A stretch of DNA of 64,000 nt from Runella slithyformis DSM 19594 (GTDB taxonomy: Bacteria; Bacteroidota; Bacteroidia; Cytophagales; Spirosomataceae). The notes below the pieces were generated by a model, which saw nothing but the letters and a program-made list of their open reading frames with translations, was not told where the DNA came from and did not search any database. The DNA is taken from the NCBI RefSeq assembly GCF_000218895.1, contig NC_015703.1, positions 3,733,001 through 3,797,000 of the forward strand, in the 5' to 3' direction. The position numbers were made by a program, and so were the translations under genes. How positions within the stretch are numbered: position 1 is the first letter of the stretch; the number at the start of each line of letters is the position of its first letter. Below are positions 17,037 through 58,564 of this stretch, piece after piece.

Positions 17037-17404
17037 CTATGCATTCCTCAGAATTTTTTCCAACTTTCTTCCCTTCGCCAACTCCTCGACCAACTTATCC
17101 AAATACCGGACCTTTCTTGTCAGGGGATTTTCTATTTCCTCGATCCGATACCCGCAGATCAGCCCCTTATGAGATGGGCATTGGGGTTTAGATCAGCCTT
17201 CTGAAAGAATTCTTCAAAAGACAGTTTATCGTCAATGTGCGCTTGCAGTATTTGGGCGGAAAAGCCCGTCAGCCATTCAATGACTTGGTGTAATTCCTCC
17301 TTCGTTCTTCCTTTCTTTTCTACTTTGTTGACATAGTGCGGATACACCGAAGCGAAGGTCATGGCCGCGAAACGTTCATCGTGTGTTTTCATAGTTTCTA
17401 TCAT
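17037..17404 (-). pseudogene. DUF2200 gene interrupted by a one-base frameshift
   Basis: The first frame (17404-17159) encodes the N-terminal part of a DUF2200 protein: [48 protein letters not shown], then a stop. One base beyond, in another frame, the family continues without a gap: [33 protein letters not shown] and LEKILRNA, ending in TAG at 17039-17037. A missing base in the GGGG run around 17158-17161 explains the break; repaired, the product would be about 122 aa, the normal DUF2200 length. It may be genuine decay, slippage, or a homopolymer sequencing error. Function of DUF2200 is unknown. Confidence 0.85.
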
Positions 17405-17444
17405 TTTTGCCGCTGTCGGTCTTATGACCGACAGCCCTTCAAAA

Positions 17445-18338
17445 TCACTCTCCTTTCACGTATTTGCGCCAGTTATGTTGTTCTTTAAAGCCCAGCACTT
17501 CACGGATTTTACGATTGGAAAACAGGGCTTCGTGCTCTTCCAATCCCCGCGTTATGGGTACATTCGGAAAAAATCTTGCCGCCAATTCTTTACTCGGAAT
17601 AATGGCCCCGTTGTGGTCATTGCCGGCGTTGAACACCTGATAGCCTAGGCCGTCTTTTTTCAAACACAGGTCTACGATCTGCCCCAGGTCGCGGGCATCA
17701 ATATAACAGAAGGCATTGCGGCGGCGCACTTCGGGGTGTTTAAAATAATGCGGAAACAGTTCAGCATACTCGTGCGGCTCGATCACATTGCCGATGCGAA
17801 GGGCGTAAATATCTACGCCTGACCGTCGCTGAAAGGTGCGGGCCGTTTTTTCATTGACCACCTTCGACAATCCGTAGCTATCCATCGGGTCCACGTCGTA
17901 ATCTTCCTCCAACGGCAACACGTGAGGGTCGGTGTGTCCGTCGGAAAAGCAGATACCGTAAGTGGTCTCCGACGAGGCAATGATGATCTTTTTAATGCCC
18001 AGTTTCACGGCTGCTTCAATCACATTGTAGGTGCCCACGGTATTGACCCGAAACGTTTCATTATCAGGCTTCAATAAGATGCGGGGCACGGCCGCAAAAT
18101 GGACCACGGCATCAAAGGAGGGTACACCCGTGCCCGGTTCCAATTCATCAAACCCGGTATAGGACGTCATGGCATTGAACATTTGTCCGGAATCGGTAAT
18201 ATCGGCGGTCAGATTGTCCACGCCCGGGTGATTCAGCGGCGTCAGGTCTACGTTCAGTACTTTATGGCCTTGGTCGAGCAGGTACGGAATGACGTGCTTT
18301 CCTGCTTTTCCCGAGCCTCCTGTAAAAAATAGTCGCAT
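17445..18338 (-). CDS. NAD(P)-dependent epimerase/dehydratase (extended SDR)
   Basis: A 297-residue Rossmann enzyme of the extended short-chain dehydrogenase family. The nucleotide site is FFTGGSGKAGKHV; FDAVVHFAAVPR marks the NNAG-equivalent strand; the catalytic dyad is Tyr and Lys in SYGLSKVVNEK; the Ser is in IIASSETTYG. A C-terminal segment (YIDARDLGQIVDLCL) is typical of sugar epimerase-like members. The family acts on nucleotide sugars or related carbonyl compounds; this member's substrate is unknown. It begins just downstream of an intergenic palindromic repeat and has no obvious operon partner. Confidence 0.88.
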   Translation of the reverse strand: MRLFFTGGSGKAGKHVIPYLLDQGHKVLNVDLTPLNHPGVDNLTADITDSGQMFNAMTSYTGFDELEPGTGVPSFDAVVHFAAVPRILLKPDNETFRVNTVGTYNVIEAAVKLGIKKIIIASSETTYGICFSDGHTDPHVLPLEEDYDVDPMDSYGLSKVVNEKTARTFQRRSGVDIYALRIGNVIEPHEYAELFPHYFKHPEVRRRNAFCYIDARDLGQIVDLCLKKDGLGYQVFNAGNDHNGAIIPSKELAARFFPNVPITRGLEEHEALFSNRKIREVLGFKEQHNWRKYVKGE

Positions 18339-18404
18339 TTTAGTTAGTGGTTTCCCTATTTATGAATGATTTATTAGAATATAAAGATTTTGATGAAAAT
18401 ATCA

Positions 18405-18525
18405 GAACACGGATGAGGCGAATCCCGAAAGCGTTCGGGAACACGGATTCTACGGATTGCCGTTGCGATTTATAAAATCCGTGATGGAACATCCGCGTTT
18501 TCGCTGCGGCGAACCGTCCGTGTTC
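18405..18525. repeat. Intergenic cluster of short palindromes
   Basis: Between the SDR and RES genes: gaacacgga (18405-18413) pairs with tccgtgttc (18517-18525), and inside it tcccgaa/ttcggga form a hairpin (18423-18440). The words CACGGAT and ATCCGTG recur. The minus-strand frame 18340-18528 is an accident of this repeat. This belongs to the dispersed non-coding repeats seen elsewhere in the window. Confidence 0.65.
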
Positions 18526-18575
18526 CATTTTTTGAAGTTCGTTAAATTGTTGTAACTACGAAAAGGGTTAAAGGC

Positions 18576-19049
18576 TTATTTTTTAACTTGAAATCGTGGG
18601 TCAAAATTCATCGAAGTAATATTGATTACCTTGATTCTCTTGGCCTCTGGATGATTGGGATTGATTAAGTAATTGAATTCCTGTGGTACAATACTGCTCG
18701 GAACTTTTAGCACGGCGGCTTCATTCTGAAAGACAAAATCGTCGCCAATTGTTTGGGTGATGAGGGTCGGAGGTTTGGCGTCCCACTCTGGCGGAAGGTC
18801 TTCGAGACTGACTTCCAAAATAGTGACGTCGGCAGGAATCTCAATTTCGACGTAGCAGCGGTCGGTGGGTAAATCCTCACTTAAATCCAAATGAACCGAT
18901 ACTTCGAGGGTGGCCAATGCCCTGCTTTCTGCGGTATACATTAATTGGGTATGGAGGCTGTTCCATCTGTACCCTCTTGATAGTGAAGCACCGATACCGC
19001 TGAGGGTCGTTTCGAGGTATTTTGCTCGTTCAACTCGGTAAACGTTCAT
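18576..19049 (-). CDS. RES-domain toxin (NAD+-degrading family)
   Basis: A 157-residue protein of the RES family. The N-terminal block MNVYRVERAKYLETTLSGIG, ASLSRGYRWNS and MYTAESRALATLEVSVHLD gives the conserved Arg, Glu and Ser positions after which the family is named. RES toxins deplete NAD+ when freed from their antitoxin. The start at 19049 is chosen because it overlaps the antitoxin stop in an ATGA arrangement and is followed directly by the RES motif; the frame reaches further upstream only inside the antitoxin gene. This is the distal gene of a two-gene toxin-antitoxin operon. Confidence 0.9.
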   Translation of the reverse strand: MNVYRVERAKYLETTLSGIGASLSRGYRWNSLHTQLMYTAESRALATLEVSVHLDLSEDLPTDRCYVEIEIPADVTILEVSLEDLPPEWDAKPPTLITQTIGDDFVFQNEAAVLKVPSSIVPQEFNYLINPNHPEAKRIKVINITSMNFDPRFQVKK

Positions 19050-19549
19050 CAGGCAAAATTTCCGTATTCGATTCTGTTCAGGCAAAATTGCACCTCATCA
19101 ATGCCGGTAATGGTATCCAACAAACTTTCGGGCGTATTTCCGCCGAGCGATACATTGGGCTTTTTGAGCCACCGCTGAAACTTCTCCTCTTCATGGTTGA
19201 ATACCTCAATGCCATAATCAATCAGTTCGGTAATCAGCACAATCAACTCACTGTCTCGGCTGTCGAGCAGAGAATGTTCGCTTTTTTTCTTGTTATACGT
19301 GGTTTGCGGCATCCCGACGATCGACAGGACGGATTTGACGGGGCGATTGAGCCGTTTACTGATGGTTTCGATGGCATCATACGGAATTCCCTGCCGGATA
19401 ATGCCGACCCGCTCCATTTTGTTGGTCCAGACGTAGGTTTTCCCCTCCGACACTAACTCCCACTTTTTCTGTCCTTTGCTGATTTCCGAAGCCTTGGCTA
19501 CACTCGCTTTGGTGTTGAAAGGCCGTGTAGTACCTGTTGTGGTTGACAT
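19049..19549 (-). CDS. Xre/MbcA/ParS-type antitoxin
   Basis: A 166-residue antitoxin partner of the RES protein. From the ATG at 19549 (MSTTTGTTRPFNTK) it has a basic N-terminal region with HTH-like character (GIPYDAIETISKRLNRPVKSVLSIVGMPQTTYNKKK) and the C-terminal ParS toxin-binding region (SELIVLITELIDYGIEVF, FQRWLKKPNVSLGGNTPESLLDTITGIDEVQFCLNRIEYG). The latter resembles the DUF2384 consensus with the NPPESLLDT-type loop. It overlaps the toxin start by four bases. An inverted repeat just upstream of the start is a likely autoregulatory site. Confidence 0.9.
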   Translation of the reverse strand: MSTTTGTTRPFNTKASVAKASEISKGQKKWELVSEGKTYVWTNKMERVGIIRQGIPYDAIETISKRLNRPVKSVLSIVGMPQTTYNKKKSEHSLLDSRDSELIVLITELIDYGIEVFNHEEEKFQRWLKKPNVSLGGNTPESLLDTITGIDEVQFCLNRIEYGNFA

Positions 19550-49352: not shown

Positions 49353-49426
49353 TGGGCCCAGTAGGGCACGATCCTACGACCCCCTGATTATGAGTCAGAT
49401 GCTCTAACCAACTGAGCTATGGGCCC
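49353..49426 (-). tRNA. tRNA with CAU anticodon, probably elongator tRNA-Met
   Basis: 74 bases folding as a cloverleaf on the minus strand: acceptor GGGCCCA/TGGGCCC, D-arm AGCTCAGTTGGTTAGAGC, anticodon arm CTGACTCATAATCAG with CAT, T-arm stem GTAGG/CCTAC. CCA is not encoded. CAU could also be tRNA-Ile2 (lysidine-modified). The T-loop is ATCGTGC instead of the usual TTCGAAT-type, exchanging positions 54 and 58. An IS4 element ends 10 bases beyond its 3' end. Confidence 0.88.
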
Positions 49427-55691: not shown

Positions 55692-55952
55692 TTATTTCAG
55701 TAATTTCTCGTCAAAGCTGCTGCCGAGTTGTTTCGACCACCTTTTCAGAATGGGTTCTTCCAATTGGGGTTCGCGGTATTCGTCCGGATTCATAATGGGG
55801 ATGCCGTAGACGATGGGGTAGTACCGTCGACAACTTTCGCAGGTGAGCAGTCCTTCAATGATGTTTCCTTCCATGTCTTTCTTAATGATCGTGAGTGAAA
55901 GGTCCTGTTTGTCAAACGGACAGCAGAGTTTATGGATGAACGATGGTTTCAT
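55692..55952 (-). CDS. Trm112-like zinc-ribbon protein
   Basis: An 86-residue protein with Trm112 features: LCCPFDKQDLSL with Cys10/Cys11, then LLTCESCRRYYPIVYGIPIM with Cys38 and Cys41 and the YPIxxGIPxM segment. Trm112 proteins stabilise and activate SAM-dependent methyltransferases. This one is the last gene of a TPP-riboswitch operon that also encodes a SAM methyltransferase, so an activator role for that enzyme is a natural inference. Start and preceding stop overlap as ATGA with the ThiE-like gene. Confidence 0.85.
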   Translation of the reverse strand: MKPSFIHKLCCPFDKQDLSLTIIKKDMEGNIIEGLLTCESCRRYYPIVYGIPIMNPDEYREPQLEEPILKRWSKQLGSSFDEKLLK

Positions 55953-56590
55953 GAGTTAACGGTGTTAAAATAATCGTTGAATAGTTGGGTGGCTTCAAAA
56001 GGATCGGCTGATTGCATGATAGCGGAGATAAGTGCCGCGCCGTTGATCCCGCAGTTTTGCAGCGTAGTAATGTTTTCTAACGAAATGCCTCCTGCGACGA
56101 AAATGGGCATTTTCGTTAGCTTTCGCGCCTTTTGCAGGGTTTCTTTGGAGACAATTTCACACGAATCGGCCGACGCCGAGGGGAACAGAGAACAGAACGA
56201 AATGTAATCAAAATGGCGGTCGTTGGCCCAATGGACCGTGGTCAAATCGTTGCCGCAGGTGATGCCTTTCAGAAAAGAACGGCCGAGAGTGCTTTCCATT
56301 TGGTCGATTGCGATGCAGGGAGAGTCAAAATGAATGCCGTCCAAGGGCGTTTCTCCCAGCAGTTCCGGATTATTATTGATCAGGACGGGTACATCCCGGG
56401 CGTGGGCCAACGACGTAACTTCTTGAATAAAAGCCAATTTGTCCATTCCAGCGGGCCAGTTGTCCCAAATCTGTAATGCACTGATACCTGCCTTAAGCGC
56501 TTGGGTCAAGCGGGGAAACGTAAAGGTGCTTTCCCAACCGGGATCAATGACCAAATATACTCCGCCCATTATTTTTTTTGTGATGTTCAT
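55949..56590 (-). CDS. ThiE/TenI-fold protein with divergent active site
   Basis: A 213-residue TIM-barrel protein that resembles thiamine phosphate synthase: YLVIDP start, phosphate-site PIFVAGGISLENI, and INGAALISAIM. Positions that in ThiE bind the pyrimidine diphosphate differ: the QxRxK strand reads Gln40-Ile-Trp42-Asp-Asn44, and the NDD metal-site segment reads Asn72-Asn73-Asn74. It may thus be a TenI-like or differently specialised enzyme rather than a standard ThiE. It is in a TPP-riboswitch operon and overlaps both neighbours by four bases (ATGA). Confidence 0.8.
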   Translation of the reverse strand: MNITKKIMGGVYLVIDPGWESTFTFPRLTQALKAGISALQIWDNWPAGMDKLAFIQEVTSLAHARDVPVLINNNPELLGETPLDGIHFDSPCIAIDQMESTLGRSFLKGITCGNDLTTVHWANDRHFDYISFCSLFPSASADSCEIVSKETLQKARKLTKMPIFVAGGISLENITTLQNCGINGAALISAIMQSADPFEATQLFNDYFNTVNS

Positions 56591-57645
56591 GTCAGTCCTT
56601 GGTTTAACGCCTTAAAAAAAGCTGCCCAGTACGGGTCTTTTAAAGGTGGAATAATACGAGACTCGCCTGACGAAGTGATTTTGTTAATTCCATTTTCCGG
56701 GGATACAAACCGTCCGACGCGCGTGGCTGAAATTCCTTCGGTACTTAACTTTTGAATCAATTGAGGCGTTTTTTCGGGCTTTACGGCCATGACCATTGAA
56801 CCCGCACCCACGGAATAGGCAGGATCGATACCAAAAAGGTCACAGACGCTTTTGGCAACTGTGCCAATCGGTAGAAGGCTGATCTCTACTTCAGTGCCGC
56901 ACCGAGATGCTACGGCCATTTCATAGATCGCGCCCAAAATGCCGCCTTCCGTAACATCGTGCATAGCCGTGACGGACAGCCCCTCGCTGTCGTTAAAAGC
57001 CGATGCGGTGAGTCCTTCTGTGAGGCTGCTTGTTTGGTAAAACAAATCTGAAGCTTCCTGAAAAGCTGACACGCCGCATTTTTCTTTGACGGTATTGGGA
57101 AAGCATCGCGCTAAGATTGAGGTAGCAATCAGCGCTGCCTGCTTAGTCACGATGATGTCGTTGCCGGGTTGGGCGTATTGACTGCACAGCATTTTTCCTT
57201 TTTCCGCAATTGCGATCATGGTGCCGCCCCCCGCAATGGTAGAGTTCATTCCTTCAAAACGGCCCGTATGTCCGCCCGTAATAGCCACGCCGATCTGCCG
57301 GCAAAATCGGTGGATGTATTGCCAATAGGCCTGAAAATCAGCCTCCGATACGTAGGAAGGAAGGTTTAAGACAAACTGAGCATACTGTGGCGCTACGCCC
57401 GTAGTGGCCATGTCGTTGGCCATTAGGTGGACCGAGAGCCAGGCTGATTCTTCCGTTCCGAGGTTAGGAATGTAAGAGAGAGGGTCGCTGGTAAGGGCCA
57501 TTTCGTACCCATTGGGCAATTCAATGATGGAAATATCGGTACCGAAGTTTGGCCCGATTCTAACTTCGGGGCGTGAAGCACCGCAGAAAGGATACACGAG
57601 GTTTTTAAAAGCCTCGTCGGTGATTTTTCCTGTGTCGTTTTTCAT
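56587..57645 (-). CDS. AIR-synthase-related protein (HypE/SelD/ThiL superfamily)
   Basis: A 352-residue ATP-dependent enzyme of the PurM superfamily. The N-terminal glycine-rich region has FGTDISIIE in place of the GDDAA motif; the middle reads SAWLSVHLMANDMATTGVAP and GVAITGGHTGRFEG; the C-terminal domain has the signature MHDVTEGGILGAIYEMA, characteristic of HypE/SelD-like proteins. In TPP-regulated context a kinase or ligase for a thiamine precursor is possible, but the ThiL motifs are not preserved. Second gene of the riboswitch operon, with its stop overlapping the ThiE-like start. Confidence 0.85.
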   Translation of the reverse strand: MKNDTGKITDEAFKNLVYPFCGASRPEVRIGPNFGTDISIIELPNGYEMALTSDPLSYIPNLGTEESAWLSVHLMANDMATTGVAPQYAQFVLNLPSYVSEADFQAYWQYIHRFCRQIGVAITGGHTGRFEGMNSTIAGGGTMIAIAEKGKMLCSQYAQPGNDIIVTKQAALIATSILARCFPNTVKEKCGVSAFQEASDLFYQTSSLTEGLTASAFNDSEGLSVTAMHDVTEGGILGAIYEMAVASRCGTEVEISLLPIGTVAKSVCDLFGIDPAYSVGAGSMVMAVKPEKTPQLIQKLSTEGISATRVGRFVSPENGINKITSSGESRIIPPLKDPYWAAFFKALNQGLT

Positions 57646-57700
57646 ATCATTCAGACGTTGAAAGTGTGTCGTCGATCAGGGGTATAGTTTCGGAGCCGGT

Positions 57701-58399
57701 TTATAGAAGTTTTACGTATAGTCCAAAAAAATCACCGTACGGGATACTCCACTGCTGCACCGGAAACCATTTGGGCAAGCCGGTACAGGTCCATTCAATG
57801 CTGTATTGCCGGCCTTCCAGGGCTTCATCAATGACCGAAATAAGGTGCCCCGGTGTGTAGAAGGTAGCCGTGACATAAAAGGGGTTTTGGCCGAATGCCT
57901 GCTGAATACGTCGGCGGGCTACCTTGGGCGAATTTCGGTTCATCATTCCAAACACAATGCCATGCTTGCCCACCCGAGCCGCTTCGCGGATTACCTGCAC
58001 GGGGTCGCGGTAATATTCAAAGGTGGTAATAAAGGCTACGGCATCGAAAGTATGATCTTTGAAGGGCATGAAATGGGAGTCGGCCATGACCAGATCTCCC
58101 TTAAATAAATGGACGGCCTGTGCCAGCATAAACGGTGAAATATCTCCGCCGGAGGCTTCAATGCCAATCTGATGCCACCACCGGGTGAAGCGCGTGGTGC
58201 CGCACCCAAACTCCAGTAGGGTATTGATGCGTTCATCCTTTTTGACAAGCTGCTCAATGACTTTCTTTTGCCAGACTTCGGCCCGTTTGTAGGGGCCTTC
58301 ATACCATTGTTCGTAGGTATCGGTAAACTCCCGATTAAAAAACCACTCTTTGCGGTTTTGCCAATTGGTCAGGTCTTTTTTGACGATTTCAAAGCTCAT
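57701..58399 (-). CDS. Class I SAM-dependent methyltransferase, first gene of TPP-riboswitch operon
   Basis: A 232-residue methyltransferase. The ATG at 58399 (MSFEIVKKDLTNWQN) lies ten bases after the T tract of the terminator that the riboswitch controls; the frame extends seven codons into that terminator, so the upstream start is rejected. SAM motif I is LLEFGCGTTRFTRWW, motif II-like GGDISPFMLAQA, and motif IV-V TFDAVAFITTFEYY. It resembles Methyltransf_11 enzymes on small molecules. Its place under a TPP riboswitch beside a Trm112-like protein is unusual. Confidence 0.88.
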   Translation of the reverse strand: MSFEIVKKDLTNWQNRKEWFFNREFTDTYEQWYEGPYKRAEVWQKKVIEQLVKKDERINTLLEFGCGTTRFTRWWHQIGIEASGGDISPFMLAQAVHLFKGDLVMADSHFMPFKDHTFDAVAFITTFEYYRDPVQVIREAARVGKHGIVFGMMNRNSPKVARRRIQQAFGQNPFYVTATFYTPGHLISVIDEALEGRQYSIEWTCTGLPKWFPVQQWSIPYGDFFGLYVKLL

Positions 58400-58408
58400 A
58401 ATGGTAAC

Positions 58409-58444
58409 AAAAAAAGCCACATCTCCCCAAAAGGGAAATGTGGC
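58409..58444 (-). terminator. Intrinsic terminator in the TPP-riboswitch leader
   Basis: On the minus strand GCCACAT (58444-58438) pairs with ATGTGGC (58422-58416), followed by seven T (58415-58409), just ahead of the methyltransferase ATG at 58399. Located between riboswitch and first gene, it is the expected expression platform: TPP binding should favour termination. Confidence 0.85.
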
Positions 58445-58469
58445 GATGGGTGATATGGATGTTTTCAGT

Positions 58470-58551
58470 GTGTCGCATTTCCTACGCCGGTCCTAACCGG
58501 TTCAGGTTCACGGGTATAATCTCAGCTTCCAAAGAAGCACCCCGATGCCGT
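58470..58551 (-). promoter_or_regulatory. TPP riboswitch (THI element)
   Basis: On the minus strand the conserved words appear in order: GGGGTGC, GCTGAGA, ACCCGTGAACCTGA, and GCGTAGGAAATGCG, which are the sequence hallmark of the thiamine pyrophosphate riboswitch. It lies upstream of the methyltransferase/AIR-synthase/ThiE-like/Trm112 operon and is followed by an intrinsic terminator. It indicates that the operon is repressed when TPP is plentiful. Confidence 0.95.
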
Positions 58552-58564
58552 TTTTTTTACAGCG

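Follow-up and report, generated by a model that had tools for sequence, protein, structure and literature searches.

In the genome of Runella slithyformis DSM 19594 we identified a compact four-gene module behind a thiamine pyrophosphate (TPP) riboswitch, located in a 64,000-nucleotide stretch of DNA (contig NC_015703.1, positions 3,733,001 to 3,797,000; henceforth the window, with positions counted from its first letter). The module encodes, in order, a methyltransferase (MT), an ATP-dependent protein of the AIRS superfamily (AIR), a protein with the fold of ThiE (THX), and a Trm112-like protein (T112). A thiamine role for it is well supported, and the reading that we prefer, to which we give about an even chance, is that the module lets thiamine-auxotrophic Bacteroidota turn a thiamine-related vitamer into thiamine monophosphate (TMP) or thiamine, under TPP repression. 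We favor such a vitamer conversion because the module is self-contained and TPP-repressed, occurs in genomes that have neither ThiC nor ThiG, and encodes one protein apparently suited to thiazole phosphate; its substrate and chemistry are what we infer.

All four genes lie on the minus strand. MT (232 aa, 57701..58399) is a class I S-adenosylmethionine (SAM)-dependent methyltransferase (Methyltransf_11, E 6.3e-16), AIR (352 aa, 56587..57645) combines AIRS and AIRS_C domains and belongs to the superfamily with the PurM/ThiL/HypE/SelD fold, THX (213 aa, 55949..56590) is a TMP-TENI protein with an altered active site, and T112 (86 aa, 55692..55952) is a zinc-ribbon protein (Trm112p, E 3.1e-8); each of these five Pfam families scored above its gathering score. 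ATGA overlaps join AIR to THX and THX to T112, as read directly from the sequence, bearing out the tight coupling of four genes claimed in a preliminary description of the window. Its statement that the products are no standard thiamine-synthesis set also held, in that none of the four reached the curated NCBIfam cut-off for a thiamine enzyme. MT starts at the ATG at 58399, directly past the T-run of the terminator described below; the mechanically called GTG at 58420 falls within that terminator.

Upstream of MT, the TPP aptamer (THI element; 58462..58554, minus strand) matched Rfam RF00059 over the complete model (1-105), with 66.4 bits against a gathering score of 54.3 (E 7.8e-11). Directly before the MT start, the expression platform is an intrinsic terminator (58416..58444, minus strand) comprising a 13-pair stem, which folded alone reaches -22.7 kcal/mol, and TTTTTTT directly 3′ of it, so that riboswitch and terminator precede the four genes as first proposed. 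The terminator scan, taken overall, returned five terminator-like sites against a shuffle mean of 5.5, that is, not above shuffles, and the case for the terminator therefore rests on stem strength and position. The 3′ part of the aptamer carries GGAAATG, complementary to CATTTCC in the 5′ arm of the terminator; because the two can pair, the leader fits an OFF switch, by which TPP should shut the operon down. Among 41 loci with the THI pattern, a hairpin of at most -7 kcal/mol precedes a T-run in 28 by crude scoring. A TPP element was located upstream of the module in 42 of 45 distinct loci, the calls being made by sequence pattern at the loci, by covariance model for one (L018), and by a genome-wide search (28/31 genomes).

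These 45 distinct loci, the window included, are from Bacteroidota only, and a conservation of this extent rules out a chance association. Gene order, which the preliminary description had proposed as a check, was MT-AIR-THX-T112 in 44/44 complete loci (counted with L090 of the duplicate pair L003/L090 and without the window itself; the total of distinct complete loci is also 44), while L102 is truncated by a contig end and has MT and AIR visible. An AIR scan of genome contigs recovered 30 loci, 29 from Bacteroidota and one from Halorhabdus, the latter with AIR alone. AIR was detected at 1e-40 in 17/291 genomes sampled from Runella's own order and at 1e-30 in 1/149 sampled from its class, namely the R. 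slithyformis genome; since it was seeded with the Runella protein, the locus scan is biased to close relatives. In flanks of up to 10 kb around 30 loci, no further gene family recurred beyond 3/14 genus labels, making the unit self-contained. In the AIR tree, the Sunxiuqinia sequence (L005) was nested in the Runella branch (support 98/99), a placement that suggests lateral transfer, and the module is sporadic in occurrence and probably transferable. Our literature search, with subscription journals outside its scope, found no paper describing the module, nor is it described in passages of PMC5613172, PMC2258182, and PMC3766115.

The thiamine genes of carrier genomes point to import. ThiC was found in none of the carriers (0/30 in a first set and 0/17 in the order sample, or 0/45 distinct carrier genomes); the sole ThiC-positive member of the 31-genome set was Halorhabdus, which is not a module carrier. 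Across the order sample, just 86/291 genomes had ThiC (86/274 non-carriers versus 0/17 carriers) and 262/291 retained ThiL, which also scored above its cut-off in 45/47 genomes searched, such that TMP is usable by carriers. Full-length ThiG was present in 0/47 genomes; PF05690 formally exceeded its cut-off in 20/47, but spanned at most about 100 of 247 positions, and we took these partial matches for other TIM barrels. A second TMP-TENI protein scored above cut-off in 9/30 carriers, THX being the only one in the remaining 21. Thiamine diphosphokinase (TPK; TPK_catalytic, PF04263) occurred in 5/31 genomes and is hence no constant partner of the module. The R. slithyformis genome (6,919,729 bases) encodes a TPK outside the module (118.8 bits, cut-off 76.4) and has two TPP elements, the second located at the start of a TonB receptor gene (L033). 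Of 20 other stretches around TPP elements or TMP-TENI genes, 16 contained receptors of the same TonB-receptor cluster and seven contained members of a PnuT-like cluster. Being without ThiC and full-length ThiG but with ThiL, the carriers look like thiamine importers. From the salvage, modification, or degradation route that had been suggested, these absences, together with that of a second TMP-TENI protein in 21/30 carriers, favor salvage, and degradation fits poorly because the switch is by design off when TPP is plentiful.

The same inventory could be read as one of synthesis: the module, with ThiL, would then provide a different way of making TMP, or either half of it, starting from ordinary metabolites and in place of ThiC, ThiG, and ThiE. 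This would amount to an unrecognised path to TMP or a thiamine-like cofactor that relies on a ThiE-fold enzyme with cysteine-dependent chemistry, an ATPase resembling AIR synthase, and a methyltransferase activated by Trm112, and we regard it as unlikely. ThiC and the module were never found together (0/45 carriers), in contrast to thiamine transport genes, which, according to excerpts of PMC5613172, are frequently present alongside synthesis in gut Bacteroidetes; moreover, ThiL is kept, and TPP repression is typical for synthesis genes. However, four proteins are seemingly too few for both rings, the module lacks a radical-SAM or sulfur-carrier protein, the R. slithyformis genome is importer-like in its TPP-element-linked TonB receptor and its TPK, and ThiL is so near to universal in the order as to be uninformative. 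Strict replacement of ThiC has no more than rival status here, because full-length ThiG is likewise absent.

THX has ThiE as its nearest fold, yet fell below both relevant curated models, with 97.1 bits for ThiE (TIGR00693, cut-off 145.1) and 35.3 bits for the thiazole tautomerase TenI (NF005819, cut-off 251). The ThiE motifs QxRxK, ND, and PTxTK are replaced by QIWDN, NNN, and PSxSA, and at the ThiE diphosphate/Mg positions arginine is changed to W42, lysine to N44, aspartate to N73, and lysine to A141. Most of the thiazole-phosphate pocket is retained while the diphosphate/Mg residues are gone, and the newly acquired W42, C133, and C144 are invariant (165/165 rows). THX sequences formed a clade separate from ThiE and TenI-like proteins (support 100/99), in a tree with long branches. 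Thus motifs, cut-off, and tree agree with the earlier proposal of a ThiE fold with its QxRxK and NDD segments replaced, and by all three the protein is not a bona fide ThiE.

These results weigh directly on the possibility that THX is a divergent but ordinary TMP synthase, joining hydroxymethylpyrimidine diphosphate (HMP-PP) to thiazole phosphate (THZ-P), with AIR as a second kinase. The fold and the TIGR00693 score speak for it, National Center for Biotechnology Information (NCBI) records label THX relatives 'thiamine phosphate synthase', and 21/30 carriers have no other TMP-TENI protein above cut-off. We nonetheless think it improbable, given the missed ThiE cut-off and the replaced diphosphate/Mg residues; in addition, Lunatimonas has ThiM-ThiE-ThiD-TenA behind a TPP element besides the module (L079; names assigned by eye, ThiE also by tree), and MT and T112 would be left unexplained.

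AIR is a member of the AIRS superfamily (PF00586, 42.5 bits; PF02769, 62.9 bits; both above gathering) that fell far short of ThiL (TIGR01379, 72.8 bits, cut-off 184.15), HypE (TIGR02124, 71.3 bits, cut-off 251.6), and SelD (TIGR00476, 49.4 bits, cut-off 125). The description of this protein as PurM/HypE-like therefore stands as to superfamily but not as to HypE, to which AIR is no closer than to ThiL. Genuine paralogues are encoded elsewhere in the same genome (ThiL, 306.9 bits; SelD, 430.8 bits; HypE, 432.3 bits), and AIR sequences formed their own clade (98/99) apart from all three, again in a tree with long branches; by cut-off, motifs, and tree, then, AIR is not a bona fide ThiL. Residues G6, K7, D37, D54, D78, H126, D230, D337, and W340 are invariant (167/167 rows). 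Two simple roles were considered and rejected. AIR as a replacement for ThiL is out, as canonical ThiL exceeds its cut-off in 45/47 genomes, including 44/46 carrier handles, and AIR as a HypE for hydrogenase is out, as genuine HypE and SelD are encoded on contig C1 of the same genome. The latter contig (G000:C1, 106,999 bases), which we take to be a plasmid, carries hypE and selD at 17400-19500 and 71800-73900 (L126, L125), apart from the 6.57-Mb contig.

Some archaeal relatives of AIR have thiamine genes as neighbors. The best three of 110 plasmid records matching AIR were from Haloarcula, and in 3/3 the AIR relative adjoins, and is divergent from, genes for a thiamine-binding protein and a thiamine ATP-binding cassette (ABC) binding protein. 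On these plasmids (L106, L108, L109), which represent three species, it is flanked by the thiamine-binding genes and katG. The Halorhabdus relative is located about 0.8 kb ahead of a ThiD-ThiN gene. The three Haloarcula sequences and that of Halorhabdus formed one clade near AIR, for which sister status is not provable, and we count their neighbors as a hint of a thiamine role.

The remaining two proteins plausibly form a methyltransferase-activator pair. T112 scored above PF03966 but below the archaeal Trm112 partner model NF038101 (61.2 bits, cut-off 77); its C10, C11, C38, and C41 are conserved in at least 95% of 45 rows, and residues 1-61 align with 6zxw_H and 6f5z_C, presumably archaeal Trm112 proteins. 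Searches for fusions revealed no PF03966 domain among the 120 of 541 MT matches listed or the 120 of 1029 THX matches listed. MT was below every listed NCBIfam equivalog cut-off, and its structure model was poor (predicted local distance difference test, pLDDT, 62.2) and unusable.

Known Trm112 partners modify rRNA, tRNA, and release factor, from which another reading arises, namely a starvation response in which low TPP leads MT and T112 to methylate a protein or an RNA, with AIR and THX supplying or sensing a small molecule. MT weakly matches BUD23, and its mean pairwise identity of 77% (46 rows) is the highest of the four and far exceeds that of THX (45%). Yet small-molecule or unassigned methyltransferases are better matches to MT than BUD23 is, and its conservation may stem from contacts inside a four-protein complex; we consider a starvation response unlikely.

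Under the vitamer-conversion reading, the substrate would be thiamine or its thiazole half in a state that is degraded, modified, or incomplete. Falling TPP would allow an antiterminator to form and the operon to be transcribed, whereupon MT and T112 would assemble into a heterodimeric methyltransferase in the manner of Trm112 partners. AIR, by the chemistry of its superfamily, would spend ATP either on phosphorylating the vitamer or on activating one of the carbonyl or amide oxygens in it. THX would bind the phosphorylated thiazole part in its retained phosphate pocket and act on it through C133 and C144, rather than by diphosphate displacement, and the product, TMP or thiamine, would enter the TPP pool via the cell's ThiL and, where present, TPK.

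Several observations weigh against this proposal. We know of no vitamer conversion that calls for all four activities. No TPP element was detectable upstream of the module in 3/45 loci, two from Neolewinella (L027, L029) plus L105. The Fisher p values for the separation of ThiC and module (0.004 counted over genomes, 0.03 over genera) ignore kinship, and the absence of ThiC is not specific to carriers, as 188/291 genomes of the order sample have neither ThiC nor the module; several carriers, moreover, are metagenome-assembled genomes whose completeness is not stated. Lastly, the AIR relative of Haloferax gibbonsii adjoins cobalamin genes and that of Acaryochloris has hydrogenase genes in the same stretch, both without thiamine neighbors, albeit that the two fall outside the Haloarcula/Halorhabdus clade.

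The module might instead make or detoxify an analogue of thiamine by which TPP enzymes or riboswitches are blocked, which we consider very unlikely. Methyltransferases and thiamine enzymes do occur in analogue pathways, such as that of bacimethrin. Microcystis releases bacimethrin and methoxythiamin, according to excerpts of PMC12345177. Nevertheless, genes for transport or export do not recur next to the module, its uniform conservation across several orders is not what secondary metabolism typically shows, and detoxification would have no need of repression by TPP.

Other thiamine-linked stretches encoded further proteins of note. A second run of genes, close to a weak TPP element, was seen in Mucilaginibacter/Sphingobacteriaceae (L076, 3711-10518; similar in L073, L077, and L083). 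It encodes a TonB receptor, PnuT, a flavin monooxygenase resembling HsaA, a protein that by eye looks like a phosphatase, and a further ThiE-like protein whose QxRxK/ND motifs are altered. A relative of the Cytophagales TPK (L082, 7881-8471), recognizable by a shared start (MSSHHIV..KQEPA) and with no Pfam or NCBIfam match left, may be a thiamine pyrophosphokinase that has decayed or been repurposed. A NadR-like kinase adjoins PnuT in both Pedobacter and Membranihabitans (L082, 3349-3879; L087, 12060-12611) and is a candidate thiamine kinase feeding ThiL. Within the window, the sole further Rfam match was a tRNA gene (49353-49426, minus strand).

The module is a conserved unit under a TPP switch, and the established thiamine enzymes, although among the best studied of cofactor enzymes, do not explain it. 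Solving it would show how some of the numerous ThiC-less Bacteroidota cover their vitamin B1 need and what a ThiE fold is capable of after losing its diphosphate site, and a function would follow for large protein groups that currently go by 'thiamine phosphate synthase', 'AIR synthase family protein', and 'class I SAM-dependent methyltransferase'.

Compared with known systems, the module resembles the TPP-riboswitch salvage operons (thiM-thiE-thiD-tenA; OMthi, PnuT) in regulator, kind of host, and likely purpose, but it has none of their enzymes, and the Lunatimonas genome possesses operons of both kinds. THX differs from ThiE and TenI in its own clade, its lost diphosphate/Mg residues, its invariant tryptophan and cysteines, and its scores below both curated cut-offs. 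AIR shares AIRS and AIRS_C with its superfamily, including four invariant aspartates that align with those of SelD, and its K7 is aligned with the SelD Cys-Lys; it departs from the superfamily in an invariant GGHTG-type motif, a C-terminal DPYW, and its separate clade, and from ThiL, HypE, SelD, and PurM in being far under all four cut-offs, in a genome with separate ThiL, HypE, and SelD. Finally, the encoding of MT and a Trm112-like protein in one operon recalls the Trm112-activated methyltransferases, from which the module is distinguished by the extra C-terminal part of T112, its score below NF038101, and operon partners that are AIR and THX rather than translation genes.

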